In this document: positions 8,203 through 53,600 of the stretch, piece after piece
Layout: every line of letters starts with the position of its first letter
How positions within the stretch are numbered: position 1 is the stretch's first letter
Assembly: GCA_938074205.1 (NCBI GenBank)
Contig: CALJES010000017.1
Location: 1-54,701, forward strand
DNA: 54,701 nucleotides
Direction: 5' to 3'
From: an uncultured bacterium
GTDB lineage: Bacteria; Armatimonadota; UBA5829
The notes under the pieces: model-generated
Told to the model about the DNA's origin: nothing
What the model saw: the letters and a program-made list of their open reading frames with translations, nothing else
The model's database searches: none
Position numbers and translations under genes: made by a program

Positions 8203-9318
8203 CTACTCAAACCACGCTCTAAGAGCTTGTTCGACGTCCTCGGGCGTAATAGCGCGCATGCAATCCGTGTTCTTGCAGGTGGGGTGCCTGAGGCAAGGAC
8301 TACAGGGAAACTCTTTTGCTACCCACACGAAGTTCTCCTTCCGCGGAAAACACCGCCATGCGCTCGCTCCAAAGAGACCCACTGTCGGCTTATCCAGCGC
8401 GACGGACATATGAAGCAGGCCGGTATCCACGCCGACAACGGCATTGCACTTTTCGATAATCGCTCCGGCTTGTTTGAGAGTAGTATGGCCCGCCGCAATT
8501 ACCGGTTGTTTTTGACATCGACGAGCGATTTCCCGTGCCAACGGAACATCCGCTGAGGACCCCAGGATTATAGAACGGACCTCATGCTTGTCGGAGAGCA
8601 TATCGGCAAGTGCCGACCAGCCCTCAATAGTCCAGTGCTTATTAGCCCAAGTCGTTGCAGGACAGAACGCAACTGTGCGCTTGCCGTGAAGTCCGTGAGT
8701 TTCAAAGAAACGCGTCGCGAACATGCGATCCGCCTCAGTAAGAGGCATGTGCATCGTTGTATCGGTGGATCTTACCCCAAGCTTTTTTAATAGATCCAGA
8801 TTGCGCTGTTGAGCAGTGGGAATACCATCTCCGGGTTCATATTTCTCGTTATAAAACAATACACTGCCCTCAGCGCCGTCAGCAAACCCTATTCTCCTTG
8901 GAGCCCCAGATAGCCAGCACACAATCGCACTCCGTAAGAGCCCTTGCAAATCCAGGCACACCTCAAAATTCCTAGAACGCAATTGCTTACGCAATAGCCA
9001 CAGCCCTCTTGCAAAGTTCAGCACCCTAGACAGAGGGCTTCGCCCCCTAGTTCGATCCCACACAATGACATCGTCCAGATACGGATTCCCTATGACTATG
9101 TCTGCAGCTTTCTTTTCAACGACCCAAGCAATATAGCTATCTGGAAACGCCTTACGCAGAGCTCTTGCAACCGGCGTAGCCATTAATACGTCGCCTATAG
9201 CGCTGAGCTTTACAATCAATATGCGCTTAACGCTATCCAATTGCTCCTTTTCAACCAGCTCTGCAGCAGAACGCGTTTCAGCTGCTTGCTCACGTATCAC
9301 CGAGGACCTCACGAGCAT
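8203..9318 (-). CDS. Heptosyltransferase-like GT9 enzyme (copy 1)
   Basis: A 371-residue GT9 enzyme of the WaaC/WaaF type. RILIVKLSAIGDVLMATPVARALRK starts the fold near residue 31. The donor site is VAFCPATTWANKHWTIEGWSAL and AVVGVDTGLLHMSVALDKPTVGLFG. A CSPCLRHPTCKNTDCM tail matches the neighbouring GT9. The first about 30 residues are a non-conserved extension; the true start may be internal. The assigned ATG overlaps the acyltransferase gene by 29 bases. Probably the inner-core heptosyltransferase I or II. Confidence 0.92.
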   Translation of the reverse strand: MLVRSSVIREQAAETRSAAELVEKEQLDSVKRILIVKLSAIGDVLMATPVARALRKAFPDSYIAWVVEKKAADIVIGNPYLDDVIVWDRTRGRSPLSRVLNFARGLWLLRKQLRSRNFEVCLDLQGLLRSAIVCWLSGAPRRIGFADGAEGSVLFYNEKYEPGDGIPTAQQRNLDLLKKLGVRSTDTTMHMPLTEADRMFATRFFETHGLHGKRTVAFCPATTWANKHWTIEGWSALADMLSDKHEVRSIILGSSADVPLAREIARRCQKQPVIAAGHTTLKQAGAIIEKCNAVVGVDTGLLHMSVALDKPTVGLFGASAWRCFPRKENFVWVAKEFPCSPCLRHPTCKNTDCMRAITPEDVEQALRAWFE

Positions 9319-10258
9319 ATTTCCAGCGATCGTGCAACCAAAGCCACTGGGATGGATTAGAGCGAACCTCCTGCTCGATTGCAGCGGTTAGCAGCGAGGT
9401 AAGAGTCTTGATGTCTTCCTCTTGGTCGCCGGAAGGGACAAAATTTATTTCGGGATAGATAACGACTTTGTATCTACCGTCCTGAAGACGGCGTGCGAAC
9501 AAAGGCACGATTGGTGCCCCTGAGCGAATCGAAAGAAAGGCCGGTCCTATGGCCGTTGCTGCTTGACGGTTGAAAAACTTGACAGGTATACCCTGCAAAT
9601 CGTTCTGATCCGGCAGCATACCGAGTATCTCGTTGTTTTTGAGTCTGCGAAATGCGCCTATTATAGGTCGGTCCTTGTCGAATACCCTGTAGCCAGCAGA
9701 CTCGCGGATGCGAGTGGCTATGCTTGTCATTCCTGGATCGTCACTATCGCGCGCTATCACGTTGACCGGATATCCCAAGACGACCAGTTTCCGAGCCAAC
9801 AACTCCCAGTTCCCGTAATGGGCCGTGACAGCAATGCAGCCGCGTCCTTTGGCGAGCGCGGCGTCGAGATTCTCCAATCCGTCGACTTCTACGAGCCGAT
9901 CTATCTCGTCTCTGGTCATCCATATCAGGCGGAAGAACTGAAGGCTTTCTCGGGCGAAGTGCTTGAAAACATCCTTAGCAAGCCGCTCGATCTCCCCCGG
10001 TTTTTTTTCAGAACCGAATGCCGCTGTAAGATTCGATAAGGCAGTGGTTCGATAGCGCTTTGAGACAAGAAAAAACAATGAGCCCAATATATCGCCCAAA
10101 TACTTCACTGCGCCTGGATTAAGGAATCGCGATGTCCTCGACAGCCACCAAAACGTGAACCTGCCGAGGAGCTTAAGTAGTCGTTTTTTGAGGGGCAACC
10201 GCTTAGCGCGCTCTGTTAAAAACAGTCTTGAGGAGTTCTGAAAATCGCTTTTCATCAT
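9290..10258 (-). CDS. Lipid A acyltransferase, LpxL/HtrB-like
   Basis: A 322-residue member of the LpxL (lauroyl/myristoyl) acyltransferase family. It has an N-terminal hydrophobic segment, the catalytic H-X4-E in AVTAHYGNWELLARKL, then GMLPDQNDLQGIPVKFF and GAPIVPLFARRLQDGRYKV. It acts at the inner face of the inner membrane, adding secondary acyl chains to Kdo-lipid A. The start used is the first of two adjacent ATGs (10258/10255), inside the end of lpxK; the longer reading would run deep into lpxK. No strong ribosome site, so translation is probably coupled. Confidence 0.9.
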   Translation of the reverse strand: MMKSDFQNSSRLFLTERAKRLPLKKRLLKLLGRFTFWWLSRTSRFLNPGAVKYLGDILGSLFFLVSKRYRTTALSNLTAAFGSEKKPGEIERLAKDVFKHFARESLQFFRLIWMTRDEIDRLVEVDGLENLDAALAKGRGCIAVTAHYGNWELLARKLVVLGYPVNVIARDSDDPGMTSIATRIRESAGYRVFDKDRPIIGAFRRLKNNEILGMLPDQNDLQGIPVKFFNRQAATAIGPAFLSIRSGAPIVPLFARRLQDGRYKVVIYPEINFVPSGDQEEDIKTLTSLLTAAIEQEVRSNPSQWLWLHDRWKYAREVLGDT

Positions 10259-11300
10259 CGATTTCGAGCTCGATATCGAGAACGTAAAGATTGGATAGAG
10301 ACCGCTTCCCTTCCAATCTGACAGCATCCTTGGCAGTAGTAACGACTGCTTCCGCCGCATGTGCTTTACACCTGGACGCTACGTAATCTATGTCAGCATC
10401 GGTGTACGCATGATGGTCGGGAAAAGTAATGTACTCACAGATAACAGCTCCCAAAGAACTTATCGTATCGCAGAACGAAAACGGATTACCGATTCCGCAA
10501 AACGCAACAACCCGTCTCCCTTGCAGCCATGCCGGATCTATGACCGAAGAATCACCTGTCAGGAGCCGTCTGGGTTTGCGGCGACACGGAAACAACTGGG
10601 CATCGGGTGCAATGGTATACAAGACATGATTTAGTTTGTCACTCTCTGTACGGCCTGCAGCAGGGCTGTTCACAAGAACAGCGTGCGCTCGACGCAGACC
10701 GGAGATAGGCTCGCGCAAGTCGCCCATCGGCATAACGTAACCACTGCCAAAAGGTCTCGCGGCGTCTATTACAACTATATCCAAGTCGCGATGGAGTTGC
10801 CAATACTGAAACCCGTCGTCAATCACTATTACACTTGGAGCAAACTTTTCGCAAGCCAGCTTTCCACCTGCGCGTCTATCTTTGCCGACAACGATTGGTA
10901 CCCCGGGCAAAGACCGTGCGAGCAACACGGGTTCGTCTCCGCATTCGTGAACCACAGAAAAGATCTGGTTTCCGTCGGACACTACGACGGGAGCCGAAGA
11001 CTTGCCTCCGTAACCGCGGGACAAGACAACAACAGACTCTCCCATCGCATCAAGCATCCGGCAAACTTTCTCGACCGCGGGTGTCTTACCCGTGCCGCCG
11101 AAGGTCAAGTTTCCAACACTTATGACAGGTACGGGAAGTTTGTGTCTTCTGCGTAATTCGCTTTCATAAAGCCACAGGTATCCGGCCAAACCAGCACAGT
11201 ATATAACGGAAAACGGCCAGGATAAACCCCTAAAAACCCACGAGAGGAAACCCCTTTCCTCGCCAAGAATTACTCGCTCAAAGTATCCCCTAGTCACCAT
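10203..11300 (-). CDS. lpxK: Tetraacyldisaccharide 4'-kinase
   Basis: A 365-residue LpxK, normal length. It phosphorylates the 4' position of the lipid A disaccharide. The P-loop is ISVGNLTFGGTGKTPAV; VVLSRGYGGKS, VIVIDDGFQYWQLHRDLDIVVIDA and the C-terminal FPDHHAYTDADI / VVTTAKDAVRL blocks are family hallmarks. An N-terminal hydrophobic stretch (VIYCAGLAGYLWL) anchors it to the inner membrane. It follows waaA after a 79-base gap and overlaps the LpxL-like gene by 56 bases. Confidence 0.96.
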   Translation of the reverse strand: MVTRGYFERVILGEERGFLSWVFRGLSWPFSVIYCAGLAGYLWLYESELRRRHKLPVPVISVGNLTFGGTGKTPAVEKVCRMLDAMGESVVVLSRGYGGKSSAPVVVSDGNQIFSVVHECGDEPVLLARSLPGVPIVVGKDRRAGGKLACEKFAPSVIVIDDGFQYWQLHRDLDIVVIDAARPFGSGYVMPMGDLREPISGLRRAHAVLVNSPAAGRTESDKLNHVLYTIAPDAQLFPCRRKPRRLLTGDSSVIDPAWLQGRRVVAFCGIGNPFSFCDTISSLGAVICEYITFPDHHAYTDADIDYVASRCKAHAAEAVVTTAKDAVRLEGKRSLSNLYVLDIELEIDDEKRFSELLKTVFNRAR

Positions 11301-11379
11301 GCCGGCCTATTTACACATCCAATACCATTGCCAAAAGCCACAGCAGGCTGTCAGTCCGTGCCCGGACTATGAAGGCATG

Positions 11380-12678
11380 CTAAACCTCAGATTGCGCCCG
11401 CCGCAAAAGATCTGCCAGCGCCTCTGCCGTGCGTCTTGATGCTCCAGCGTTGGCCGCTATCAGTTCCGCACATCGCTTGCTGATGTCCATCAAGAGTTGT
11501 TGATCCCCTATAAGTCGGATTATTTCTCGAGCGAGACCTTGAGCGTCAGATACTTCGAAACCAACCCCAGCCCTTTTCGCTTGATTTGCTATATCTCTCT
11601 GTTTGAACGTATAGGGACCGAAAACTACAGGCTTAGCCTGCGAAATTGGCTGCAATATACTGTGACCGCCTTTTCGAATTAGAGTTCCTCCGACGAATGT
11701 GATGTCTGCAATAGCATAGACTCTGGCGAGTTCACCGAAGGTATCAAGGATTATGAGGTCCTCTTTTCCTGTAACGGACTCTGGTTGACTGCGAAAACCG
11801 CAGGACAAACCAAGGCTGACAGCCAAATCGCGAATCTCCTTTTTGCGCTCTATCTGTCGCGGAGCGACTATCAAGCGCAAATCAGGATAGACTTTGCGAG
11901 CCTCGACAAACGCCTGGAGCACTGGCCGGTCCTCGCCCGGATTGGTGCTGCCAGCGACAAAAACACGTGCGTCTAACGGTAGTTTGAGCGACTCGCGAAT
12001 TTTCACCTGAGCATCATCCGACAGCGGACTCTCGGCTTCGTCTGCCTTGCAATTACCCGTTACCACAACTCGAGATGGATCAGCGCCAAGTGCCACAATT
12101 CGTTCAGCATCCTCTGCGGATTGCATACAAAACAAATCAATATTAGAAAGGGTCCATTGGTAGATCCATGGTGCTAGACGCGCGCCGCGAAGCGTCTTGT
12201 CTGACACGGTGCCGTTGATGATGGCATTCGGAATCCCGTGACGCCTAAGGACGTGCCTCAGATTAGGCCATATCTCAGTATCAGTGCTTGCAAAAAGCGA
12301 AGGCTGTGTGCGCCCTACTGACAGCTGAACGCTAGGCAACAGATCAAAAGGATAGTAGAAAAAAGCATCAGCACCTGCAATGCACTTTCGAGCCATTTCT
12401 TGACCTGTGTGCGTGGTCGTCGAGACCAAAACCACAACTTCCGGCATTATCCTCCTTAACTCTGCGACCACACCGGCACTGGCCACCGATTCACCTACTG
12501 AAACCGCGTGAATCCAAACACGGGGTCTTTCCGAAGGCAAGTCCGGCAACCGCACAAAGCCCAACTGGTCTCGCCAGGAATGAAACGATTTCCTCGTGAT
12601 AAATACCCGCCAAAAAATGAAAAGAAGAATCGCCGGCGAAAAGAGGAGAATTGTCAGATTGTATACAATGAACGCCAT
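11380..12678 (-). CDS. waaA: Kdo transferase
   Basis: A 432-residue 3-deoxy-D-manno-octulosonic acid transferase that puts Kdo on lipid IVA. The N-terminal membrane anchor is MAFIVYNLTILLFSPAILLFIFW. The catalytic Glu region is WIHAVSVGESVAS, followed by LVSTTTHTGQEMA, FASTDTEIWPNL and GGHSILQPISQAKPVVFGPYTFKQRDI in the donor domain. I chose the ATG at 12678, 14 bases after the DUF374 gene, because it starts at the anchor; an upstream start would add 18 unlikely residues. Whether it adds one or two Kdo units cannot be told. Confidence 0.95.
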   Translation of the reverse strand: MAFIVYNLTILLFSPAILLFIFWRVFITRKSFHSWRDQLGFVRLPDLPSERPRVWIHAVSVGESVASAGVVAELRRIMPEVVVLVSTTTHTGQEMARKCIAGADAFFYYPFDLLPSVQLSVGRTQPSLFASTDTEIWPNLRHVLRRHGIPNAIINGTVSDKTLRGARLAPWIYQWTLSNIDLFCMQSAEDAERIVALGADPSRVVVTGNCKADEAESPLSDDAQVKIRESLKLPLDARVFVAGSTNPGEDRPVLQAFVEARKVYPDLRLIVAPRQIERKKEIRDLAVSLGLSCGFRSQPESVTGKEDLIILDTFGELARVYAIADITFVGGTLIRKGGHSILQPISQAKPVVFGPYTFKQRDIANQAKRAGVGFEVSDAQGLAREIIRLIGDQQLLMDISKRCAELIAANAGASRRTAEALADLLRRAQSEV

Positions 12679-12692
12679 ATCGCAGAGCAGCT

Positions 12693-13445
12693 CTACCGTA
12701 ATGAACCTATCGAAGTTGAAAGTAGTTCCCAAGCCCGTTGCTCAGCAGCATTTATGCTTTGCTCGACCCGCTCTGCTGCTTCGTCCACGTTCTCGTCAGG
12801 GCCTACCTCCAAAAGTTCACCAAATACCAAGACTGCCCTAGCAAACGGTGCAGGGACCAGATGCGAATCCCACGACGGCGCCTGCAGACACGGTTTGCAA
12901 GCGACTCCAACGGGTAGAATTGGTGCTCCGGACCGCTGTGCCAAGTGAATGGTACCCGGCTGCACCTTCCGTACAGGCCCCTTTGGACCATCCGGAGTAA
13001 CCGCTAGAACATTTCCTTCGCGAAGCCTCCTGACAGCCTCCAACAATGCTTGGGCACCCCGCCGCGCACTGGAACCGCGAATGGTGACAAAGCCACGTTT
13101 AAGCAAGATCCTGTGCTGAAGCTCTCCGTCCTTAGAAAGTGATACTATTGAATAAAACTTCATATTCCGGCAGTAGTAGATGGGCAGAGTGGTAGAACCG
13201 TGCCAGAGGACTATCACTCCGCCCCTGCCCTCTTTTACCATTTGCTGCAACCGCTGCCAACCTTCAACCCTAAACCGTACTGTAGCACACAAAGCGGTAG
13301 AGACCAACCATAATAAGGTAAAGGTCGCCTCGAACTTTAACCGCTCCCACAGCGCTGTCAGACCGCGAGTGAATCCAGAACCCTTGGATCCCGAAACTGA
13401 AAGACGAGCGTTTTTGCTATCCACCGCACCCCCGCACTTTCGCAC
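12693..13445 (-). CDS. DUF374 lysophospholipid acyltransferase-like protein
   Basis: A 250-residue DUF374 protein. The family block GGVIVLWHGSTTLPIYYC (HX4D-like site replaced by WHGS...P), VSLSKDGELQHRILLKRGF, RGSSARRGAQALLEAV, LAVTPDGPKGP and QRSGAPILPVGVA are all present. DUF374 genes often lie beside waaA and are thought to acylate lipid A or another lipid. It starts with a GTG overlapping the msbA stop as TAGTG, preceded by GGAAG. A second acyltransferase (LpxL-like) is nearby, so the two may add different chains. Confidence 0.88.
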   Translation of the reverse strand: MRKCGGAVDSKNARLSVSGSKGSGFTRGLTALWERLKFEATFTLLWLVSTALCATVRFRVEGWQRLQQMVKEGRGGVIVLWHGSTTLPIYYCRNMKFYSIVSLSKDGELQHRILLKRGFVTIRGSSARRGAQALLEAVRRLREGNVLAVTPDGPKGPVRKVQPGTIHLAQRSGAPILPVGVACKPCLQAPSWDSHLVPAPFARAVLVFGELLEVGPDENVDEAAERVEQSINAAEQRAWELLSTSIGSLR

Positions 13446-15238
13446 TACAATACTTCCTCAGCTCGAAACTGAATCTTGTACATTCGCGCAAAAAGTCCGC
13501 CGCTTGCCAGTAGCTCGTTGAATGAACCCACTTCCAATATCTGGCCGCGATCCATTACCATTATGCGGTCAGCACTGGTCACCGTGGAAAGTCGATGAGC
13601 GATTACCAGAGTTGTTCTGCCTCTCATCAATCTTTCCAGTGCCTCTTGCACTACGACCTCTGATGCCGCGTCGAGCGAAGATGTAGCTTCATCAAGAATG
13701 AGTATCCGAGGGTTTTTGAGCAGCGCTCTGGCTATCGCAATTCGTTGTTTCTCACCGCCGGACAGGCCGCTTCCTCCTTCTCCCAATCGAGTGTCGTAGC
13801 CGTTCGGCATTGCCTGGATGAAATCGTGAGCGTTTGCAGCCTTGGCAGCTTCGATGATATCGAGCAAGTCGGCACCCGGACGTCCATAGGCGATATTCTC
13901 GGCAATAGTACCGCTAAATAGAATGGTTTCCTGGGGAACTATTCCGATGTGAGCGCGCAGGCTTGCTATTTTCACGTCCCTGACGTCGCAGCCTTCCACA
14001 AGCACTTGACCCGACGTGGGATCGTAAAACCTTGGTATCAAGTCGGCGACAGTGGACTTGCCCGCACCACTTGGCCCTACAAGTGCTATCACCTCCCCGG
14101 GTTCTATCTTAAAGGAGACTCCGCGAAGTATGGGTTCGCCATCGCTGTACTGGAAATGCACTTCTCTGAACTCGACGTGCCCCCGAACATCACGCAGTTC
14201 TATGGCGTCCGGTTTCTCGACCAAGTCAGACTTAGCATCGAGCAAATGGAAAATGCGCTCTGCGCCGGCCATTGTCTGTTGATAAAGCACGTTTATCTTC
14301 CCGAACTGTTTGCCCGCGGAAGCCACTATGAAAGCAAGGTACGTAAACTCGAAAAGTTTGCCGATTCGGATCTCTCCGTTTACCACCATCAATCCAGCGA
14401 ACAAAAGAAGCATTGCTCCCGACAGACCGCCCATGAACTCGACCGTTGGAATCACCGCTGCAGCCCGCCTGGCAGCTCTCAATGCGGCTCGCAGTGCCTC
14501 GGCATTAACGCGCGCGAACCTGGTCATCTCGTGCTGCTCCATAGAGAACGCTTTGACAACCCTTATTCCTCGGATTGACTCCTCAACCACCGTGTTAAGT
14601 TCGGCAAGCTTTTCCTGAGTATCTGTTGTTAGCCTGCGGATCTTCTTTGAGAGCCGGTCTATCAGCATCCCCATCAACGGAACGAATATCAGTGTAAGAG
14701 CCGCCAGTTTCCAACTTATGGCGAACAAACCAGCGAGGCCGACGACTATCAGAACCGGAGCGTCGATAGCTTGGGTAACCACCTGACTAGCGTTTGTAAT
14801 TAGTCCTACGTCGTAAGTAATGCGTGCAATGATGTCGCCCGTCTTGTTTCGATGAAAGAAGCTCAGCGGCAAAGTTTGTAGGTGATCGTATACCGCGCGG
14901 CGAACGTCGGCACCAATGCGGTTCGTTACAGAAGCCGTTAGGTAATTGTTGGCATAAGAAAAAAGTGCCTTTGGAACGTGTACCAATACGGCAAGAAACG
15001 CAACAATCAATATCAATGCAGTCTTAGCATGCGGCGGCTCAAAAATGCCATAGCGTAGGCCTATTTCCACAGGAGGGAGGTTGAGGACGTCTTTGCCGCT
15101 TGCAACAGTCGCAAACCAGTTGATGACCACTCCCAGTGCGCGGACGCACGCTGCGCTTATCAGACTGCATAGCACGGCCGCGAAAAGTCTGGCCTTATAC
15201 ACAAGAACGTATTTTAGAAGTCTCCTGCGCACGTCCAT
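13445..15238 (-). CDS. msbA: Lipid A export ABC transporter, MsbA-like
   Basis: A 597-residue half-transporter with six membrane helices (residues 1-320) and one nucleotide-binding domain. Walker A is GPSGAGKST, the Q-loop IVPQETILFSG, the signature LSGGEKQR, Walker B ILILDEATSSLD and the H-loop VIAHRLSTV. Its place in the lpx operon supports lipid A-core flipping across the inner membrane. Generic multidrug exporters share these motifs, so the substrate rests on context. No good ribosome site precedes the ATG; 59 bases separate it from the methyltransferase gene. Confidence 0.93.
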   Translation of the reverse strand: MDVRRRLLKYVLVYKARLFAAVLCSLISAACVRALGVVINWFATVASGKDVLNLPPVEIGLRYGIFEPPHAKTALILIVAFLAVLVHVPKALFSYANNYLTASVTNRIGADVRRAVYDHLQTLPLSFFHRNKTGDIIARITYDVGLITNASQVVTQAIDAPVLIVVGLAGLFAISWKLAALTLIFVPLMGMLIDRLSKKIRRLTTDTQEKLAELNTVVEESIRGIRVVKAFSMEQHEMTRFARVNAEALRAALRAARRAAAVIPTVEFMGGLSGAMLLLFAGLMVVNGEIRIGKLFEFTYLAFIVASAGKQFGKINVLYQQTMAGAERIFHLLDAKSDLVEKPDAIELRDVRGHVEFREVHFQYSDGEPILRGVSFKIEPGEVIALVGPSGAGKSTVADLIPRFYDPTSGQVLVEGCDVRDVKIASLRAHIGIVPQETILFSGTIAENIAYGRPGADLLDIIEAAKAANAHDFIQAMPNGYDTRLGEGGSGLSGGEKQRIAIARALLKNPRILILDEATSSLDAASEVVVQEALERLMRGRTTLVIAHRLSTVTSADRIMVMDRGQILEVGSFNELLASGGLFARMYKIQFRAEEVL

Positions 15239-15297: not shown

Positions 15298-15876
15298 TTA
15301 TCGACCGAGCGCAATCAGATAAGCCAGCGGCGATATGTGAACGGTAAGAGCGTTGACAACGAGCATCGTCGAAAGAACCAGGTTCAGAAATGCTGTTCGG
15401 TGTTCGCGATTGGATACGACCCGATCCCACGAAAAGGCTCCGTTTCCAATACTCGGCCGAAGCTTCGGCAACAAACGTGGAACCCTGCTAACATACTCCT
15501 CATATACAGCACCGAACGTGTTTCGCAGTTTGCTCTCTTCAAACGCGATCGCCCCGCCGTGGAAAGCCCAGAATATCACAAATCCAATAGCGAATATATC
15601 AGCTCGGCCAAAAATAGCCAAGTAACCGCAGAATATGAGAAAGGAGCCGAGATATAGCGGGTTCCGGCACAATGAATAAGGACCCGCGGTGACAAGCTCA
15701 TTGTCCTTGCTGAGATAGCCAGCAGCTAACAGTCTGATTGCCTGACCTATGATAACGAGCGGCACGCCTATGACGGTGTAGCGCGGCACCGGACGCCCGA
15801 CGACAAGCACCAAAATACCCAGCATTGTCATAAACGCCGTTCGACGACGCCATAGGAATTGGACCATTATGTTCAT
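15298..15876 (-). CDS. Ste14/ICMT-like membrane methyltransferase in the lpx operon
   Basis: A 192-residue integral membrane protein of the isoprenylcysteine methyltransferase/PEMT group. It has four or five hydrophobic helices and the SAM-binding signature ELVTAGPYSLCRNPLYLGSFLI, then EESKLRNTFGAVYEEYVSRVPRLLP. The ATG at 15876 is preceded by GGGAG at 7 bases; a longer frame start at 15936 overlaps lpxB. It lies between lpxB and msbA. Leptospira LmtA, a Ste14-like enzyme, methylates the lipid A 1-phosphate, so this is a candidate lipid A phosphate methyltransferase; that step is inference from context. Confidence 0.85.
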   Translation of the reverse strand: MNIMVQFLWRRRTAFMTMLGILVLVVGRPVPRYTVIGVPLVIIGQAIRLLAAGYLSKDNELVTAGPYSLCRNPLYLGSFLIFCGYLAIFGRADIFAIGFVIFWAFHGGAIAFEESKLRNTFGAVYEEYVSRVPRLLPKLRPSIGNGAFSWDRVVSNREHRTAFLNLVLSTMLVVNALTVHISPLAYLIALGR

Positions 15877-15932
15877 ACTATAACTCCCATGCTGGCACCG
15901 CCAATCTCCAATATAATGACCGTTGGAATGAG

Positions 15933-17087
15933 TCAAGCGAGACCGCTCATTTCTAGTATAGCCTCCGCGGCACGCTTGAACACACCCGGCTGCCCCAGTG
16001 TTTGCCTGATCTCAGCAAGCGAACGCCGCATTTCATCCGCCTTCGATTCTTCACGGATCAGACTGAGCGCAGCCTCAGCAAGATTTTTTCCAGTAACCTG
16101 CTCATTGATCAACTCCGGACAGACCTGACGTCCAGCTATGAGATTGGGCAAACCAATAAACCCCTCGATTTCGTGTTTCCGCAGCCTGTATTCCAACCGC
16201 ATAAGCACCGTGCCTCGATAGAATATAATCATCGGCGTTCCAATAATCGCGGCCTCGAGCGTAGCTGTACCAGACTTGCATATAACAATGTCGCTTGCGG
16301 CTATGCAATCGTACGTGCGATTTTCCAGTATGCGAACGTCGACACTATCCCGCAGAGTTGCAAAAGCAGACTCCACGCTGGCGCGGACCCAATGACTTGT
16401 CATCCCAATGGGTACCAAGAACTGTACTCCGCCGAGCTCACGATTAAGTATATGCGCGCATCGGGCCAACTGCGGTAGATGTTCGACAAGCTCGTGCCTT
16501 CTGCTGCCTGGCAGCAAACCGACGACTGGCAAAACCTCACGAAGCCCGAAGCTGCACCTCAAAAAGTCCCTTCCGCCCGAGGGCACAACCAAGTCGAGCA
16601 ATGGATGGCCAACCCATCTAGCATCTACACCCTGCTTGGCTAGGTACTCAGCTGACCACTGGAAAGGGCAAATCACCTTGCCGCCAGCCGCTTTGAGCTT
16701 GTCCGCGTTTCCCGGGCGTCTTCGCCAAGACCCCGGCGGAATAAAGTAAACTACGGGAATACCTGCCTTTGCAACGACCTGGGCTAGTCTCAGATTGAAC
16801 GCTCCAAAATCTATAGGTAGAAACAGAGCAGGCCGATCCTTGAGAATCAATCTCCTTAAATGGAGATAACCTCGGGCGATAACCGGTAACGTCTTGGCAG
16901 ACGCCCAAATACCTATTGCCCCGCCGTTTGCTGTATTCAGCTTGATATCTACTCCGGAAGCTCTAAGCCTTGGACCGCCTGCGCCCCAAAACCGAAAGTC
17001 GCCACCCATTTCCCTAAGTGCCGCGACAATGTGCGCACCGTAGAGGTCACCTGAGGCTTCGCCCGCTGAGATGGCAATTGAAAGCAT
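15933..17087 (-). CDS. lpxB: Lipid-A-disaccharide synthase
   Basis: A 384-residue GT19 enzyme joining UDP-diacylglucosamine and lipid X. It begins SIAISAGEASGDLYGAHIV, has FLPIDFGAFNLRLA, YFIPPGSWRRRPGN in the place of the usual P-x-VWAWR block, GLLPGSRRHELVEHLP, and KSGTATLEAAIIGTPMIIFYRG. Length is normal for the family. It follows lpxA closely (21 bases). Lipid X, its substrate, needs an LpxH/LpxI/LpxG activity that is not in the window. Confidence 0.94.
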   Translation of the reverse strand: MLSIAISAGEASGDLYGAHIVAALREMGGDFRFWGAGGPRLRASGVDIKLNTANGGAIGIWASAKTLPVIARGYLHLRRLILKDRPALFLPIDFGAFNLRLAQVVAKAGIPVVYFIPPGSWRRRPGNADKLKAAGGKVICPFQWSAEYLAKQGVDARWVGHPLLDLVVPSGGRDFLRCSFGLREVLPVVGLLPGSRRHELVEHLPQLARCAHILNRELGGVQFLVPIGMTSHWVRASVESAFATLRDSVDVRILENRTYDCIAASDIVICKSGTATLEAAIIGTPMIIFYRGTVLMRLEYRLRKHEIEGFIGLPNLIAGRQVCPELINEQVTGKNLAEAALSLIREESKADEMRRSLAEIRQTLGQPGVFKRAAEAILEMSGLA

Positions 17088-17108: not shown

Positions 17109-17933
17109 TTAAGATCTAGGGGTCTCGAGCTGTCTGCCGCCGAAACCAAGCCTGACATTTCGTATGAAGTCCAGCAGATACTGAAGCTCTTCGCTCGGCT
17201 CGATCTCGTTCTCAATCGCCTCGAGTGCTTGCGTGACGTTGAGGTTGGACCTGTAAAGCAGCTTATAAGCGTGCTTGAGGTCGGCCCGGATCTTGGCAGG
17301 CACACCGTTGCGGCGCAGACCGATGACGTTGAGGTCATAGATTTTGAGCGGTCGGCCATCGGCCATAGCGAACGGCGGAACGTCCTGCACAACTTTGGAA
17401 AAGCCTCCGATCATTGCCAGCTTGCCGATACGAACCTTCTGGTGAACGCCGACGATGCCACCGAAGACCACTTTGTCTTCAACCAGGGTATGTCCGCTGA
17501 TGCCCACCATGTTCGCCATAGTTATACCACTGCCGAGACAGCAGTTATGACCTATATGGCAGTATGCCATAAGCATGTTGTTGTCACCAATAATGGTTGA
17601 TTCTCCTTCGCCGCTAGCTCGATGAATCGTCACGTATTCACGGATAATGTTACCGTCGCCGATCCGGAGGAAGGTCTTTTCTCCTTTGAACTTGTAGTCC
17701 TGCGGCGGTCCACCAAGAACAGCACCAGTCATAATCCTGCAGTTCTTACCGATTGTAGTGCCAGTGTGGATGGTGACGTTGCCGTCAATTTCGGTGCCGT
17801 CCCCAATAACAACGTCTCCCTCTATGATTGAATAAGGGCCAATCTTAACCCCGCTCCCGATCTCTGCACTTGAATCTACCAGCGCAGTCGGGTGTATCTC
17901 AGTCTTCATTTCCTTCTCTACCATAGTGCTCAC
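17109..17933 (-). CDS. lpxA: UDP-N-acetylglucosamine acyltransferase
   Basis: A 274-residue LpxA, first step of lipid A synthesis. The left-handed beta-helix is made of hexapeptide repeats from IHPTALVDSSAEIG to about residue 190. The catalytic His region is MLMAYCHIGHNCCLG, and VTIHRASGEG and MVGISGHTLVEDKVVFGG are diagnostic, with a helical C-terminal end. The GTG at 17933 overlaps the fabZ stop (GTGA); an ATG nine bases in is equally possible. Confidence 0.95.
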   Translation of the reverse strand: MSTMVEKEMKTEIHPTALVDSSAEIGSGVKIGPYSIIEGDVVIGDGTEIDGNVTIHTGTTIGKNCRIMTGAVLGGPPQDYKFKGEKTFLRIGDGNIIREYVTIHRASGEGESTIIGDNNMLMAYCHIGHNCCLGSGITMANMVGISGHTLVEDKVVFGGIVGVHQKVRIGKLAMIGGFSKVVQDVPPFAMADGRPLKIYDLNVIGLRRNGVPAKIRADLKHAYKLLYRSNLNVTQALEAIENEIEPSEELQYLLDFIRNVRLGFGGRQLETPRS

Positions 17934-18409
17934 TTGGCAACCTTGTCCTCGACCACGCTGTCGGTTGATTTACTGTCTCGCTCTCTATCAACTAAAGCAA
18001 AAATGAACTCACCCTCCGCAGCAACCTCATCGTCTACGCGGGCGACCGCTCGGACTTTGCCGATATTGCCCTTTGCGGCAATTAGTTCAACCTCGGTGAC
18101 AAGTGTATCCCCGGGAACTACGGGTCTGCGAAACCTTACCCGGTCCATACCGCCGAAGTAGGCAAGCTTGCCCTCGTTACCCGTCATCGATAGGAGCAGC
18201 ACGCCTCCCACTTGCGCCATAGCCTCACACACTAGCACTCCAGGCATCACGGCGTGACCTGGAAAGTGCCCCTCAAAGAATTCCTCGTTGATTGTAACGT
18301 TCTTGTACCCGCGTGCTCTCGTTCCAGGTGTGAGTTCGACAATACGGTCTACAAGCAAAAACGGGTATCTGTGCGGCAAGACGTCGCGTATTTTTTCTAT
18401 GTCGAGCAT
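17930..18409 (-). CDS. fabZ: 3-hydroxyacyl-ACP dehydratase
   Basis: A 159-residue hot-dog-fold dehydratase of fatty acid synthesis. The start of the fold is IRDVLPHRYPFLLVDRI; the active site is EGHFPGHAVMPGVLVCEAMAQ with catalytic His and Glu. AYFGGMDRVRFRRPVVPGDTL is typical. The ATG at 18409 follows AGGGCGGTG and starts the conserved domain; an upstream frame start adds nothing conserved. In some bacteria FabZ is fused to LpxC; here the two are separate neighbours. The C-terminal tail is Asp/Lys/Ser-rich. Confidence 0.95.
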   Translation of the reverse strand: MLDIEKIRDVLPHRYPFLLVDRIVELTPGTRARGYKNVTINEEFFEGHFPGHAVMPGVLVCEAMAQVGGVLLLSMTGNEGKLAYFGGMDRVRFRRPVVPGDTLVTEVELIAAKGNIGKVRAVARVDDEVAAEGEFIFALVDRERDSKSTDSVVEDKVAK

Positions 18410-18506
18410 AATCACCGCCCTATAAATCAGCCTGCCGTTCCCGGACGAACCAAAAGTCGCTCGCACGAGACAACAGGTTGTAATCTACCTCTCCCAAATA
18501 ACCTTT

Positions 18507-19403
18507 CTAGCAAGCTTCTTCTCCGCGGCACACCTCAAGAACTTTTCTTGCAAACTCAATGTTGAGGGAATGTCCGGACTTTACAGCGACTATCTCTGCC
18601 TCTAACACGCAACCGATCAGCGCGATGTCACCAACGAGATCCATAACCTTGTGCCTAACCAGTTCATCCGGAAAGCGCAAACCAGAACTGATTCGATCCC
18701 GCCATATGACGATCGCATTCTCAACACTTCCTCCGCGCGCAAGATCGTTTTCCAGAAGCTGTGCGACTTCTTCATAAAGCACAAACGTCCGCGCCGGCGC
18801 GATCTCGCGTCCAAAATCACACTCACTCAGTTCATAGGTGGCCACCTGAGCTCCAATCATCGGGTGGTCATAATTCAACACATACGTAATTCGCAGCCCC
18901 ATACCGGGAACGGCGGCGATGAACGAGCCGTTCTGTTGAACCACCACTGGTTCGCCCAATCTCAGTATACGCCTGGGCAGCCCCTGCTCTACAACACCTG
19001 CGGCGTCTATGGCCTCAATGTATGGAAGAGCGCTCCCGTCAAGCGCTGGTGTCTCTGTGCCACGTACTTCAACAACAGCATTGTCAATTCCTCTACCGCG
19101 TAGCGCAGCCATGAGATGTTCTACGGTACGAACCCGCGTACCATTTACACCCAGAGCCGTCCCACGCGACGTATCAACCACGTTTGCTACGACCGCCGGT
19201 ATAGGATCGGATGAACCGATGAAGACAATACCCGTGTGTGGAGCCGCCGGATGAATAGTGACTGAACACTCGTCACCGCCATGAAGTCCTCTACCGTGCA
19301 GAGTCACGGCTGATGCCAAGGTTTGCTGGCTAGCAGCCGATTTTCTGCAATGCACAGTCGTCTCTCGTCTCGCAGCTTCGGGTTCAATGGTTAATGTCGT
19401 CAT
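18507..19403 (-). CDS. lpxC: UDP-3-O-acyl-N-acetylglucosamine deacetylase
   Basis: A 298-residue zinc deacetylase, the committed step of lipid A synthesis. Zinc ligands appear in [11 protein letters not shown] (His) and [15 protein letters not shown] (His and Asp); the catalytic His is in [23 protein letters not shown] at the N-terminus and [12 protein letters not shown] are family markers. About 25 extra residues precede the domain. Its start overlaps the lpxD end by 20 bases. No fusion with FabZ. Confidence 0.96.
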
Positions 19404-20448
19404 TCGTTTCGCCTCTTACCTGTGCACTCAAGCGCTGAACCTCATTTTCCAAAGTCTTTAGTCTCCTGAGCATTTCAGGCAGACGTAGCCACGCCGCTTG
19501 CGCACGCTTTTCTGCAAAATGGTCCCGTGCAGGGAAACCGGAGACAACAGAACCTTTTTGCAGATCGCCGATCACACCTGCGCGCGCTGCCACAACGCAT
19601 TCGTCACCAATACGCACGTTGTCCTTTACTCCGGCCTGCGCCGCCAGTGTTACATTATCACCAATCTCGACACTTCCAGCCACGCCGCTCAGCGCAACAA
19701 TCACGCAGTTGCGTCCGATTTTGACGTTGTGAGCAATATGCACAAGATTATCGATCTTCGAGCCACTTCCTATTATAGTCGCACCAAACTTCGCCCTATC
19801 AACCGTTGAATTGGCACCAATTTCAACGTCGTCCCCAATCTCCACGATTCCGACATGGGGGATCTTAAGCAGGCCACTTTCACCTCGGCGGTAGCCGAAG
19901 CCGTCAGCTCCTATCACGACTCCGGCGTGGAGGATGACCCGGTTTCCAATTCTACACCGCGGATACACAACCACACCTGGATGCAACACGCAGGATTCGC
20001 CTATTGTGACGTCCGCACCGATATACACATTGGGATGAATGATGGAGCTATCCCCCAGGACGGCCCTATCACCTATGAACACATTTGCGCCTACGCGGAC
20101 GCCACTGCCCAAACGCACGTTCGAGCCCACAACAGCGGTTTTGTCCACGCCAAGCGCCGGCAATTCCTCCTCAGGCTGAAAAAGTCGCAGAACCTCTGCA
20201 AAAGCGTCGGCAGGATTTTCGACTCTGATTATGCTCTTACCGGATACCGCTAGACCAAGGTTCGGAGCAGTAACCACACATGTTGCTCTCGATGCGCAGG
20301 CCTTCTTGAAAAACTTCTCGTTTTCTGCGAGGACTACATCGCCCTCAGAGGCATAGTCGACCGAGCTTACCCCGGTGACGACCGCGTCGCTATCACCGTC
20401 GACGACTCCGCCCAGCTTTTCAGCAAGCTCTCGTACCGTAACACGCAT
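19384..20448 (-). CDS. lpxD: UDP-3-O-acylglucosamine N-acyltransferase
   Basis: A 354-residue LpxD, third enzyme of the lipid A route. The N-terminal uridine-binding domain ([14 protein letters not shown] to about residue 100) is followed by hexapeptide repeats. The catalytic region is [29 protein letters not shown] and [13 protein letters not shown] with the active His. The ATG at 20448 lies 5 bases after the upstream stop and begins the conserved domain. Confidence 0.95.
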
Positions 20449-20453
20449 TGAAC

Positions 20454-21626
20454 TCACCGTAACGCGGCCGAAAGCACTGGACTCCAACACAAATTAGGGT
20501 CCTGAGTCAGCCATTGGCGAAACTGACGAGTGGCGTTTCGAACACCAGATCTAACCACAAATGTAACACGCAAGCCTTTTTTTGCGGCGATCCTGCGAAC
20601 TTGCTCAGCAACATCTCTTCTGATTTGCGACTCAATCGAACCCACTGTCTGCGCAGGCAAACGCCGGCCTAAGAAGCCGCGCCAAGTAACCGGCTGCGCC
20701 GATACCCCGGTAGAAACCGGCTTGAACTGGACTACCCATTCAGAACCGGACCAATGCGACTGCCAAGCCTCTTCCGGAAGGCCCAAACCTGAGAACACTT
20801 CGTTTCGTGCTTCGGCTATCGCCGCTTCGATCCTCGTGCGCTCAGCCATTTCTATTTCTGCCAATCTACCTTCAAACTCAGCCTTCTTGCGACTACGAAG
20901 ATCAGAGATCTTTTCGCCTAATTCCGCTCGCAGAATCGCGGTCTGCTGCGTAATAGCGTCTTCCAGACGTTTCTGCTCAGCAATCGTCTCCTCGAGATCG
21001 CGCTCGAGTTGAGCAAGCCAGTTGTTCGATTGATTACTCCTCGAAGCAGCAAAAACTGAGTTCAAGTGCTCCACAGCAGCCAGCAGAACTGCAATGCGAA
21101 TCTGTAGTTCACGTCTCCGGTTCTCGGGAACCAGGTAACTGAGTTCTTTTTCTTTCTCAGCAGCAGCGCGTTCCAGTTCCCTGATCTGAGCAGCCAGCTC
21201 CGGCTCAACGCTCGCCTCGATTGTTGCCCGTATACGTTGCAGTCTTGATCCCAAAGCTTCTCTGTGCATGGCTTCCAAACGACTGAATTCGCCGACAGCA
21301 GTCAAGGCCGTTTCTGCCACTAGGTCTTTCCTGTCCACACTAGGCGGCCGGATATAACTGCTCAGCGGAGATAGACTGAATGAGGGGCGCACTGCGATGT
21401 CCTTCGTCTGCTCCCCGTTCGGAACAGAAAAACTGGAAAACCTCTTTTCGTCCTGTATCGCTCCGAAGCAAGGATGCAGCGGTATCAAAGCTTGTATGTC
21501 GATGAAGACAGCGTGCTCAGATATATCTCGCTTTCTGATAGACGAATCATCTGTCAGCGAGCACAATACCACAAATGTTATCAGGCTAACGATTGCCACG
21601 CAAAGTAGGCATACAGCAGCCTTCAA
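20454..21626 (-). CDS. Unknown secreted or anchored coiled-coil protein
   Basis: A 390-residue protein I cannot name. An N-terminal hydrophobic stretch ([22 protein letters not shown]) is a signal or anchor. A long helical, Glu/Arg-rich coiled coil spans roughly residues 100-275. A C-terminal domain from about 278 contains two Trp-rich segments ([20 protein letters not shown]) and a basic end. Its place between ompH/skp and lpxD, where bamA or a second skp-like gene often sits, suggests a periplasmic envelope-assembly role. It is 3 bases from the ompH gene. Related genes may exist only in this phylum. Confidence 0.7.
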
Positions 21627-41498: not shown

Positions 41499-44090
41499 TC
41501 ACCGCCAATTGAGTTCCAGAGTAACGGATTCTGGCTTGTTCGAAAACGTCACAGCGAGGATTTCGGCATCCTCGTCAATTAGCCATTTCTCCGACGCCGT
41601 CACTACGGGCCGCCGCCCGTTTTTCGCTATACGCAGCACTCCTTTTGTACCAAGCGGGCCGGAAATTCTGAAACGACTGTAATCTGCAGTTTCGATCTTC
41701 TCTTCAACCCTATAAGAGCTATATAGCAACCTAGGTACTCCGGCAAACCGATCCGTTATATCACAATAGAGTGCGCACTTCTGCGGGCCGACAACCGGGT
41801 CATTTATGACAGGCAGCTTAGGGTCCAGAATGTCTACGTACCGACCCCTCAATCGCTTTTCGCCTTCAAATGTGCGCACTGCGACGTAAGGCCCCCTCCG
41901 AATAGCCATATGGTGCTGCTCTCGATACTCGAGACCGGCTTTTTTACAAGCATAGGCCGTGATCCTGCGAAGAATGTCCGCCGACTCCTTGGAGGATGCG
42001 AAGTAAGAGGGCGCGATTCCCACGTGGATAAGCGTGCCTTTTCCGTAGTGGTGTTCCATGATTGCGCAGTTGCCTCCCGGTCCAGAGTATAGCTGCCCTT
42101 GAAGATCCTTGTCCGTATAAAGAGGAATGAGTGTTAAAGGAAATCGGGAGTTTACCTCGAACCAACCCCTGTTTTCGAATATTGGTTTCCCGCGGATACT
42201 GAAATACGAATTCTCTGGTTTGGTGCTGACCTCGACCAGGAACTGATTCTCCATCTCGACTTCCAGGATGGGCTTCGAATCCGCTGGCACAGTGAATTTG
42301 TATACCCAGAATGCATCGCCGTCAGCAAACCGCACTCGACCATTAAAGAAGCTGCCGCTTTCTGCAACAAGATAGTTTTTCTCCTCCTCGCTTCCAGCTT
42401 TGAAATAAGCTTGCTCGATCCCGTTAATCGTAATTTTTGCCCAGGCTACTGCAGCTCCCCAACCGTCTTCAGGAAAGGCATCTCGAAATCTGACGTATAT
42501 CGCGTCTGCCTGTTTGGCAAATCTTTCGAGATCGTAGCTATATACTCTGCGGTTACTGGCGTTTCTGACAGCTTTCTTCTCACGATCTATCTCCTGATAC
42601 TCTTCTGGACCAACTAGTGAGATGAAATCATTCGGCGCACCAAGGCGAGAGTAAAGGTCAGCCTGAGGGGAATTGTAACCGCGCTTTCGCCACCATTCCG
42701 GTAGTGCGTTGTAAGCATCAGTCCCGCCAAAAAAGACCAGCACGCCACCTTTCTTTACCCAGTCAGCTATTGCCTGGTTGTATTCCGGTCTGATGGGCTT
42801 CATGATGTCGTAAGAAAGAAGAATGACTTTGTATGGGTCGAGGTAACCCTTCTCAGGTGCGCGTTCGAGCTGCGCCACTTGGACCGGTATGCCTCTGTAG
42901 ATCAACGGGAGTGTGAGACCGTAGAAACAGTCATAGTTGCTTACGTGAGGCGAACCACGCTGCCAGCCCATAGAATCAGCAATCAGGGTAGCAACCCCCT
43001 GTGTAGCCGTGTCCCACTTTGGATTCTTATGGTTGTGCATATCCTGAAGCGCATTTATGACCGACCCGATCTCTGTCGCAAACTCGTCTGGAACGCGCCC
43101 GTAAATGCGCGTGGGCCACGGCATCACCTCATATGCGTCCACCTCAGGGAACATAAGCGCGGCGACAAGTGTTTTGTGGTAGTTATCTCTATAGTCCTCC
43201 ATAGAGCGATTAGGATTGTCTTCCAGAGGATCCATCAAGAACCACAGGCGCTTGTCGGAACCCCTCACAAGATTGTAGAGACTGGAGTATTCGAGGAAGG
43301 CATTCTCGAATGTGCGTTCTGCCACTACACCCTCGTACCGACAGGGAGAACGAGCCGTGCCTGTCCACACTTGGCCGATAATCTCCTGAAGATTAGGAAG
43401 ACCAAAGCACTGATAGTGAGGATAAACGATTCCCCAGGCGTAGTAGTTGACTGCAGAGTGACACGCAACCATGCGACGAACCTTAGGGTTCTGTTTTTCC
43501 GCGGCGTCTAAGATGGCTTTCACAATATCGTATTCCATTTTTGCCTTGAGCCGATCAGACTTCCACCGAGCTTCGATTGAGCTCGTAGGATCCTGCCAAG
43601 GCTCACCGTAATGCTCTTGCCAAGCTCGCTTAAATGACTCGGAATACCCAGCCGCCGCGAAGAACTCAGGCTCCTCAGGAATGACCGCGGATGTACCGTT
43701 TGCGATAGCATTAGCGAAATAGTCCAGCGCAACTTTTACTCTGTTCCGAGTAGGCACCATATAGTATGAACCGGGACCGCACGTCAACAGTGTCCCATCG
43801 GCGGTCGTCTGCACTTCATCGGGATGCTCTTTGGCGTATTCCGAGCCGGCGCGAAAACCGTACATCGTTTGGACTATGAAGCCCTTGTCCTTCCAACTCT
43901 GTATTCGTTCCCTGACGTCCGAATAGACAATCACAGCGTCCGTGCGAATGTCATTATCTGGACGATACTCCGTGGGAGTTTGGAAGGAAGTGTAGGGTAT
44001 TCGCGTCTCATTATTTGCGGATATCCCATTTGTGGATATCTCGGAAGCGACGAACAGAACTACTAAAACCGGAGCCCAATACGAAAGCAT
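41499..44090 (-). CDS. Large secreted glycoside-hydrolase-like protein
   Basis: An 863-residue exported protein. Signal peptide MLSYWAPVLVVLFVASEISTNGISA. The first about 350 residues look like a TIM-barrel glycosidase (ERIQSWKDKGFIVQTMYGF, SAVIPEEPEFFAAAGYSESFKRAWQEHYGEPW with candidate acidic residues). Then comes a Rossmann-like segment (YKVILLSYDIMKPIRPEYNQAIADWVKKGGVLVFFGG), as in the trimerisation domain of GH42 enzymes, and beta-sandwich parts. I cannot assign a GH family. GAGGTG precedes the ATG at 44090; a GTG at 44102 is less likely. Confidence 0.75.
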   Translation of the reverse strand: MLSYWAPVLVVLFVASEISTNGISANNETRIPYTSFQTPTEYRPDNDIRTDAVIVYSDVRERIQSWKDKGFIVQTMYGFRAGSEYAKEHPDEVQTTADGTLLTCGPGSYYMVPTRNRVKVALDYFANAIANGTSAVIPEEPEFFAAAGYSESFKRAWQEHYGEPWQDPTSSIEARWKSDRLKAKMEYDIVKAILDAAEKQNPKVRRMVACHSAVNYYAWGIVYPHYQCFGLPNLQEIIGQVWTGTARSPCRYEGVVAERTFENAFLEYSSLYNLVRGSDKRLWFLMDPLEDNPNRSMEDYRDNYHKTLVAALMFPEVDAYEVMPWPTRIYGRVPDEFATEIGSVINALQDMHNHKNPKWDTATQGVATLIADSMGWQRGSPHVSNYDCFYGLTLPLIYRGIPVQVAQLERAPEKGYLDPYKVILLSYDIMKPIRPEYNQAIADWVKKGGVLVFFGGTDAYNALPEWWRKRGYNSPQADLYSRLGAPNDFISLVGPEEYQEIDREKKAVRNASNRRVYSYDLERFAKQADAIYVRFRDAFPEDGWGAAVAWAKITINGIEQAYFKAGSEEEKNYLVAESGSFFNGRVRFADGDAFWVYKFTVPADSKPILEVEMENQFLVEVSTKPENSYFSIRGKPIFENRGWFEVNSRFPLTLIPLYTDKDLQGQLYSGPGGNCAIMEHHYGKGTLIHVGIAPSYFASSKESADILRRITAYACKKAGLEYREQHHMAIRRGPYVAVRTFEGEKRLRGRYVDILDPKLPVINDPVVGPQKCALYCDITDRFAGVPRLLYSSYRVEEKIETADYSRFRISGPLGTKGVLRIAKNGRRPVVTASEKWLIDEDAEILAVTFSNKPESVTLELNWR

Positions 44091-44195
44091 GTCCAAAACC
44101 ACCTCGCGTGCATGTTACGAACAACAGCCCTCCAAGCGCAAGCGCACAAAACCGAGCTTTAACAGAACCATACGCACACGGTAATCGTCTCTTAA

Positions 44196-50619: not shown

Positions 50620-53600
50620 CTATGGGCTTACCCACTCGAGCTGATCAAGCCCGCCGCCGCCGGTACCAGGCACGCATCGCATGTGGAGCATGCGGATTCG
50701 ACCGGTCCCGGAGACGTACTTGTTACTAGAAATTCCGGTTACAACGGCTATTTTACCGATGTCGCTTGGGTCGCGCGGCCAGTTCTCGAACCAGTTGAAG
50801 AGCCGCACGCACTTGACACCGGTCATTCTGGTGTTCGGTGGGTAGTCGGTTTCGGCGCTCACGTCGCTTACAGTGCCGCTGCCATCATCGATCCAACACC
50901 ACATATATCTGTAGCTCGGATCCCAACCGTAACCGACAATCTTCCCGGCCACTCGCACCAGCACGCCTTCGGTGTTCAAACCGGTAGCAAATACAGCCGG
51001 CGGACCAATCTGATCAATGACAGCCGGGGTTCCCTGACCGGGGCCGGGATTAGGCACATCGCTTAGCCATCCACCACCGAGCGATTTCACCGTCAGCTCC
51101 AGGAATGGTGGCAGCGAAGCGGGCGGTCCTACGGTCGGCGTCTCGGTCAATTGTAGCTCTCGAGGCTTGTCCATATAGTCGTTTTGAGAGGTACCAGTGC
51201 TGTTAAGCAGGCCCTTCATACGAGTGATTGTATCTCCAATCTGCAGACCAGGTGGTAGATACTGCGCTGTTGCTCCAGTGTAGACCTTCAACCCTGAAAC
51301 ACCGGCTTTAGGATCGCCGGTTCTGTTCATCTGCTCTACCCAGAACCACTTTCCAGCATCGTATCCTCCGATATCACCCACATCCACGTAGGTGACGACG
51401 AGAGGATTCGTCGTGCTGTCGAAGATCGCGGTGCCGTCTGTAGCTCTCTTGATTACGCCGAGCTCAGAAGCAATAGGTATCACATGCACGTCGCTGGGCT
51501 TTCCGGGTTTAAGAGAGCGTGCTCCAGGCGCATGTTGATCCAGGACGCAATACATATCTACCCGATCTCCAACCTTTGGCAGAATAATACCAGTGGTGGC
51601 CAGGGTATCGACGACACACAAAGCCTGATATCCGTCATATGGCAACTTCACCGTGAACCGCTCATTAGCCGCATCCACCGATACGACTTCAGCGTCGAGA
51701 ACTCTGTAGTAGCTATACAGAACGTTGCCGGTGAAGTAGGTGCCGCGGTCCATGGTTCTTACTGGCAACTGCGAGTTGTTGTGAGAAAGGATAACCGGAG
51801 GCATGGTCGGAGTCACAACGCCTGCCGAATAGCCACTGGCTTTGTCGTAACTGCCGATCACGACGATCCGATCGAGTTCGACAACGTCCGGATCACCAGC
51901 GCGCACATTTATCTTTACGCCCATATTGACGCCAAGGAACTTGGTATCGCCAACGAAGTAGTAACCGTTGAAGCCCTTCCTATTCTTGGCAGGATCCGCA
52001 GCCTGCCGCGTCACAACGCCCATTGCGCAAACTGTCCGGCCGCCAGGCCGATAGCCGCCTATAGACCACTTATAAACGACCTGCGTCGCGACCAAAGGCC
52101 AGACACGGCCGTTGACCCCTGTTGTAGTGCCGCCCAGGGTAACGCTGATGTTCGCCTTGGGCCAGTCGGTTTCGCCCAGGTTGTCGGGCCAACTTCCTGT
52201 TGCACCGTGAGCGTTTGCTACGTTGAATTCAGCAGGATAGGTGGCCCCAGGATATGTCTTGCCCGAGTAGACTTCGTCAGGTTGCTGGGCAGGGTAGACC
52301 ACGTTGTTTGCGCCTTCCGTCGCATCAATCACGTAGTTGCCGTCTGCGTCGGTGACTGTTTCTGTCGTCCATGTGCCATACGCATCAGTAACAGAGCACT
52401 TGACCGTGACATTCGCAGCCGGGTAGCCTGTGTAGCCTTCCGTGATGCGACCGGAGATCTTTCCGCCAGTGACGTATATCTGTAGCGACCCTTCCTGCAC
52501 GGGGACCTGCGGGTAGTGCACATCAAACATGTAAACTTTTACCGTATGCCAACCCGCAGCTGAACCTCTCGCCACAGTAGCGTCGTTCCAGTAAGTGTTT
52601 TGATATCCGTCGCGTCCGCGCAGCGTCATAGCCCAACCGCTATTCGGATCTCCCACGGTTCCCCAACCCAGGCTCGGGCAATGAATCTTGACCGAGGCAA
52701 TGTCGTTCACGGTCGGCGTGTTGTTACGGTCTTCAGCCACCACGGTAATCCGCGTGGTGGTATTGCCGTCAGCAATGATTGGGTTGGAAACAGATTCCCC
52801 AACGGTTACCGAACCAGAAACGAATACAGGGATATACTCACCTGGCCAGTAGACCTCCATTCGGCTCGTCGTACTGTGGGAAGTCGGTACCCCAAGCGGC
52901 TCCTCATAAAGGCCAAAGAAAGCCGCCGAGACTCCTATGATCGTGGTCTGACCACCGGTTAGAACGACATTCCCGGCTGGGTCGGCTTTAACAAAATACG
53001 GCCACTTGTTGCCGGAATAGTTCGTGGCCAAGCCGTAGGTTTTGAACGACGAAGGTGGGTTGTTATAAGGGTCTATATTTGCCATTTCCGCAAGCGGAAA
53101 CTTGTAAACCTTCTGGTGCGGAACGTCGGTATCGCGCGGATCAGTATAGTTGTACTGTTCGTCGTTCGGCCCGGTCGGCATACCCGATATGCGGGCGATC
53201 CAAACATCTCCGTTGTAGATATCTATGCCCGTTGCGCGACTGTACTGCGGGTAGCGTATCGAAGTCGCCTGCCATGGGGTCATCTGATCGGTGTCCCACA
53301 CGGAGATCTCCCCGGTCTCTGGGTATATCCCGCCGCCCACAGCCCCCGCGACGTAGAGGTAGTTACCAACGAAGCAGCATCCTAAAAACGTGTCGTCTAT
53401 TGCAGGGCCATATGCCAGTGGCGATCTGATATCCGGCGGAGCCGGTGTAGCACCCTTACCGTATGCAAGTCGGCTGTTGGTAGATGGCGGCGCACTGGGT
53501 GAAAAATAGGTTTCAGCGATGCGGAAAGTATCGCCCTTGCCGATCACAGCAATGTCACGGCCTTGCTGGCACGTTTTTGTGGCGGTCTGCACCCATTGCG

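Follow-up and report, generated by a model that had tools for sequence, protein, structure and literature searches.

A candidate LPS-lipid methyltransferase gene of the ICMT fold between lpxB and msbA in an Armatimonadota lpx operon

The window, meaning the whole stretch of 54,701 nucleotides that was analysed, contains a lipid A operon in the order lpxD-lpxC-fabZ-lpxA-lpxB-X-msbA-DUF374-waaA-lpxK-lpxL-GT9-GT9. All genes from lpxD through the heptosyltransferases are located on the same strand. Kinship with related contigs assigns the host to Armatimonadota. Gene X, a candidate lipid A/LPS methyltransferase gene, is separated by 56 bp from lpxB on its 5' side and by 59 bp from msbA on its 3' side. 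It starts with an ATG codon at 15876-15874 and ends with a stop codon at 15298-15300 on the minus strand. The preliminary description had placed a Ste14/ICMT-like membrane methyltransferase between lpxB and msbA, and the reading frame, the fold and both neighbours were confirmed. The features of the locus are as follows.

17930..20490, minus strand: fabZ, lpxC and lpxD, with which the operon opens
17109..17933, minus strand: lpxA (TIGR01852, 310.8 bits)
15933..17087, minus strand: lpxB, upstream neighbour of X (TIGR00215, 218.6 bits, above cut-off)
15884..15888, minus strand: Shine-Dalgarno-like GGGAG, 7 nt 5' of the ATG of X (read from the sequence)
15298..15876, minus strand: candidate methyltransferase gene X, 192 aa, ICMT/PEMT fold (ORF call, Pfam/HMM matches, AlphaFold2 model)
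15838..15849, minus strand: N-terminal RRRT, residues 10-13, with Arg12 common to the relatives matching the LmtA model (alignment)
15652..15684, minus strand: GPYSLCRNPLY, residues 65-75, RHPxY-type SAM-site motif of the ICMT superfamily, invariant or nearly so among orthologues
15535..15540, minus strand: Glu113-Glu114, EE motif of the ICMT superfamily, invariant among orthologues
15301..15462, minus strand: C-terminal extension, residues 139-192, with invariant Glu158 at 15403-15405 and with an extra helix (HMM matches, AlphaFold2 model, alignment)
13445..15238, minus strand: msbA, downstream neighbour of X (best match TIGR02203 MsbA, 519.9 bits, below the cut-off of 602)
12693..13445, minus strand: DUF374 acyltransferase-like gene between msbA and waaA (PF04028, 82.9 bits)
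9290..12732, minus strand: waaA, lpxK and lpxL-like genes of this operon (names based on tblastn/HMM conservation among lpx clusters and on the sequence)

The top Pfam match of X was PEMT (PF04191), and its score of 40.3 bits exceeded the curated cut-off of 25 that defines the core domain of the superfamily. The Pfam ICMT model scored 23.9 bits, just under its cut-off of 24. The AlphaFold2 model of X (pLDDT 90.7, pTM 0.84) was matched in structure comparison to eukaryotic ICMT 5vg9 with a Z score of 11.5 and an rmsd of 2.6 over 127 residues, and to archaeal Ma-ICMT 4a2n with a Z score of 10.7; both matches span residues 1-138 of X. As shown by the alignment of 27 X orthologues, R71, P73, Y75, E113 and E114 were invariant, and the motif around GPYSLCRNPLY was conserved in generic ICMT/PEMT proteins too. 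By its core domain, ICMT fold and SAM-site motifs, the membrane protein X belongs to the ICMT/PEMT methyltransferase superfamily.

The part of X that follows this core has no counterpart in the canonical ICMT and MddA models. ICMT/Ste14 shares the fold and the SAM-site motifs with X, but the C-terminal extension is lacking from the ICMT models and from 4a2n, which ends near X residue 139. The NF040696 ICMT model scored 35 bits on X against a cut-off of 160; prenylated CaaX proteins, the ICMT substrates, are generally absent from bacteria. The methanethiol S-methyltransferase MddA (NF045656) has the core methyltransferase domain in common with X, but its model stops at X residue 137 and scored 24.5 bits against a cut-off of 270. 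We know of no linkage of MddA to LPS. PEMT likewise shares the core domain, but it is a broad Pfam model that is defined by neither the extension nor an LPS context. While the ICMT and MddA models stop at X residues 137-139, the LmtA model alone continued into the extension, to residue 172. Foldseek retrieved no structure covering the C-terminal extension, and this absence is no sign of a new fold. Arg12, Arg48 and Glu158 were common to X and nine of nine LmtA-model relatives in the alignment, and the same three residues were found in the window clade, the Marinimicrobia/Poribacteria clade and the Acidobacteriota proteins. The 13 generic ICMT proteins used for comparison had been chosen by low score and form a partly circular set; independent controls for the extension and the linkage were the ICMT and MddA models, 4a2n and the Bacillota-type phylum described below.

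To survey the neighbours of X, we used the best 30 X matches among 201 Armatimonadota genomes. The lpxB gene adjoined X in 29 of these 30 loci and msbA was located on the other side in 28; the exceptions were one locus at a contig end and one with the order fabZ-lpxA-X. When lpxB was positioned by a separate search, 34 genomes had X on the lpxB strand at a distance of no more than 1.5 kb. Six more lpxB-X genomes were recovered by tblastn, so that 40 or more genomes, drawn from 15 families, show the lpxB link. Two additional families carried lpxA-X or lpxA-X-waaA, one of them (f42) as fabZ-lpxA-X-waaA. The conservation of gene neighbours, which the preliminary description had named as a check, was thus borne out, and the retention of lpxB-X-msbA in most of the best loci indicates that the placement of X is beyond chance. 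The occurrence of X was patchy. Whereas lpxB was detected in 190 of the 201 genomes, any X-like match was detected in 107, and X was missing altogether from genus g3, which belongs to the same family as the window's genome. This pattern indicates an accessory decoration and not a core step of the pathway.

Bacterial genomes were also scanned once with the alignment from Armatimonadota, which yielded 80 loci selected without regard to their neighbours. Among them, Marinimicrobia showed the order X-lpxB-DUF374-lpxK, and Poribacteria showed lptF-lptG-X in 3 of 3 loci examined. X followed two heptosyltransferase genes in Acidobacteriota (GT9-GT9-X, GT9 confirmed) and in one case lay 3' of waaA-lpxK. 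A Bacillota record contained lpxC-fabZ-lpxA-X, and in two further bacteria X came after a gene for an LpxB-like protein. No lpx gene adjoined X at other loci, including those of Omnitrophota, Eremiobacterota, Synergistota and Planctomycetota, which indicates that the LPS linkage of X-type genes is frequent and not universal. At two Eremiobacterota-type loci (L044 and L055) the methyltransferase gene was seen by eye to follow two GDP-mannose-type nucleotide-sugar dehydratase/epimerase-like genes, a context that hints at a polysaccharide or lipid-linked role. A plasmid search returned just distant ICMT-like genes such as czcN.

From the Bacillota-type phylum to which this Bacillota record belongs, 119 genomes were searched for X, using the alignment from Armatimonadota, and for lpxB. 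Matches over the whole X model were found in just 2 of the 119, both within fabZ-lpxA-X-(lpxI)-lpxB operons of LPS-bearing Bacillota, and in one of these genomes (G287) lpxI, lpxC and lpxB of the X operon were confirmed. In contrast, none of 18 partial ICMT-like loci of this phylum had an lpx neighbour. The exact chance of such a split (2 of 2 full-length against 0 of 18 partial loci) is 1/190. In the X copy of G287 (L208:4558-5193) the SAM motif has diverged to RRPDAWG in place of RNPLYxG with the reading frame still open, so this copy may be inactive or functionally altered.

Methyl phosphate in lipid A has been described solely in Leptospira (PMC10248169), and the rarity attributed to it in the preliminary description agrees with this record. 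The responsible enzyme, LmtA of Leptospira interrogans (lipid A Kdo2 1-phosphate O-methyltransferase, TIGR04571), shares with X the ICMT core, the N-terminal Arg, the RHPxY and EE motifs and a C-terminal extension with a conserved Glu, and the match to X reached position 199 of the 252 positions of the LmtA model. The two differ in length (192 aa in X, 252 in LmtA), in a TSGRNT-type insert before the SAM motif, which is invariant in LmtA relatives and absent from the window clade, and in genomic setting, since X is located inside the lpx operon and the LmtA relatives examined were unlinked to lpx genes (no lpx gene within 1.5 kb at L115, L116, L144 and L174-L179). These relatives, full-length TIGR04571 matches of 208-253 bits from Planctomycetota, Omnitrophota and one Armatimonadota genome, served as proxies in place of Leptospira LmtA.

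The LmtA model scored 46-48 bits on X, below the cut-off of 325 of an exception-type model meant for Leptospira. Among models of characterised enzymes LmtA nevertheless ranked highest on X (48.2 bits, against 35 for ICMT and 24.5 for MddA), and it was also the best such model for 8 of 9 other members tested, mostly LPS-linked, the exception being the G287 copy. The profile of the window clade could be aligned with that of the LmtA relatives over residues 2-173 (E 1.8e-26). In the best trees, the LmtA relatives grouped with the Marinimicrobia/Poribacteria/Eremiobacterota clade, apart from the window group, and a joint clade of the window group and the LmtA proxies was not rejected (AU p 0.396). 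Orthology of X and LmtA was considered and found unsupported: within the window's genome, the lpx-linked X scored 46.3 bits on the LmtA model and an unlinked paralogue scored 48.7, far from the range of the full-length relatives. Hence, of the likeness to LmtA proposed in the preliminary description, the ranking of LmtA as best characterised model and the match through the extension held, but a specific kinship was not supported. One Armatimonadota genome (G008) contained both an LmtA relative (L144, C90:16072-16815, 220 bits) and an lpx-linked X (C99:24672-25175). The presence of both types suggests different targets or positions, unless contig C90 is a contamination.

LPS-gene linkage over several phyla, together with Arg12, Arg48 and the Glu158-bearing extension shared with LmtA relatives, argues strongly that the substrate of X is an LPS lipid. 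A substrate from the lpx pathway had already been proposed from the position of the gene, and both the operon context and the linkage in other phyla support it. In ICMT enzymes, SAM enters from the cytoplasm and the lipid acceptor from the membrane. The product of LpxB is the first molecule with a disaccharide 1-phosphate, and MsbA clears the finished lipid from the cytoplasmic leaflet. Given this order of the pathway, the location between lpxB and msbA leaves X well placed for capping a lipid A phosphate before export. X would be a SAM-dependent methyltransferase of the inner membrane with the ICMT fold. Its substrate would most likely be lipid A or Kdo-lipid A, as produced by LpxB, LpxK and WaaA, met on the cytoplasmic side before MsbA flips it. 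The most likely reaction would be O-methylation of a lipid A phosphate, which would turn it into a methyl phosphodiester and remove one negative charge. By analogy with the architecture that X shares with LmtA, phosphate, either the 1-phosphate or the 4'-phosphate, may be the acceptor group, a point on which the balance is close to even and the case weaker than that for the LPS lipid. We regard O-methylation of lipid A phosphate before MsbA export as the best explanation as a whole and give it a probability of roughly 0.5. Our literature search found no biochemical or lipid A data for organisms bearing X, including no lipid A structure from Armatimonadota.

A different group of the LPS lipid, for instance the carboxylate of Kdo, a hydroxyl on a core sugar or a substituent, may be methylated instead of the phosphate. 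This is the less probable choice, although it deserves consideration, because a carboxylate is the acceptor of known ICMT enzymes and the linkage of X varies along the LPS pathway, from heptosyltransferases in Acidobacteriota to lptFG in Poribacteria; the coexistence of X with an LmtA relative in G008 also favours it. Yet in Armatimonadota, Marinimicrobia and the Bacillota-type phylum X has genes for the lipid A backbone as its neighbours, which often precede any Kdo or core step, and Arg12, Arg48 and Glu158 form an architecture shared with the LmtA model.

It is improbable that X is a PEMT-type phospholipid N-methyltransferase producing mono-, di- or trimethylated phosphatidylethanolamine, with its lpx placement reflecting joint regulation of the envelope. 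The PEMT model gave the top Pfam match, but it picks up further lpx-linked family members as well (L107, L208 and L209), so that the PEMT name is weak evidence. Moreover, the association with LPS genes recurs across phyla, and no choline or phosphatidylcholine genes were seen beside X. ICMT-like genes are common, and two further matches were found elsewhere in the genome of X; even so, it is very improbable that X is simply one more ordinary protein of this kind, with an unrelated function and an accidental place in the operon. This reading is disfavoured by the neighbourhood kept over 15 Armatimonadota families, by the LPS linkage in other phyla and by the partial ICMT-like loci of the Bacillota-type phylum, none of which was lpx-linked.

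The distribution of lipid A phosphate methylation, if X carries it out, has to be seen more broadly than before. The suggestion of a second lineage with the chemistry of Leptospira proved too narrow, as the architecture of X is found beside LPS genes in several phyla. Because relatives of X are kept beside lipid A/LPS genes in these phyla, methyl-capped lipid A may be more widespread than Leptospira. Tentatively, and with somewhat less than even odds, LmtA could form a single branch within a wide and so far unrecognised subfamily of ICMT-fold methyltransferases of LPS lipids, which have an N-terminal Arg and a C-terminal Glu extension and whose genes occupy lpx, lpt or core-LPS operons in five or more phyla. 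Methyl-capped lipid A would then be a common charge-lowering decoration outside Leptospira, and the lpx-linked type may act at a position different from that of LmtA, for example the 4'-phosphate. In the limited literature set searched, no paper joined isoprenylcysteine-type methyltransferases with lpxB and msbA or reported lpx-linked ICMT-like genes, and within it the wider distribution of lpx-linked X-type genes seems undescribed. Should the lpx-linked genes prove to encode this chemistry, the modification would reach across several largely uncultured phyla, with its gene in the core lipid A operon itself, and genome-based prediction of lipid A charge and of phosphate-based host recognition of LPS would change.

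Some other features of the window and its assembly were noted. Two long ORFs on the minus strand, 41502-44102 and 50623-54273 (867 and 1217 aa), had no Pfam match at 1e-5. The assembly of the window contains lpxA, lpxB, lpxC, lpxD, lpxK, waaA and msbA, and a whole-genome search gave no match to LpxI (PF06230) or LpxH (TIGR01854). With the rest of the pathway present, the UDP-diacylglucosamine hydrolase should be an LpxG-like or strongly diverged enzyme, one of an unrecognised type, or one whose gene is absent from the assembly. The DUF374 gene at 12693-13445 possibly encodes an LpxJ-type secondary acyltransferase, and a DUF374 gene is also located 3' of lpxB in Marinimicrobia.
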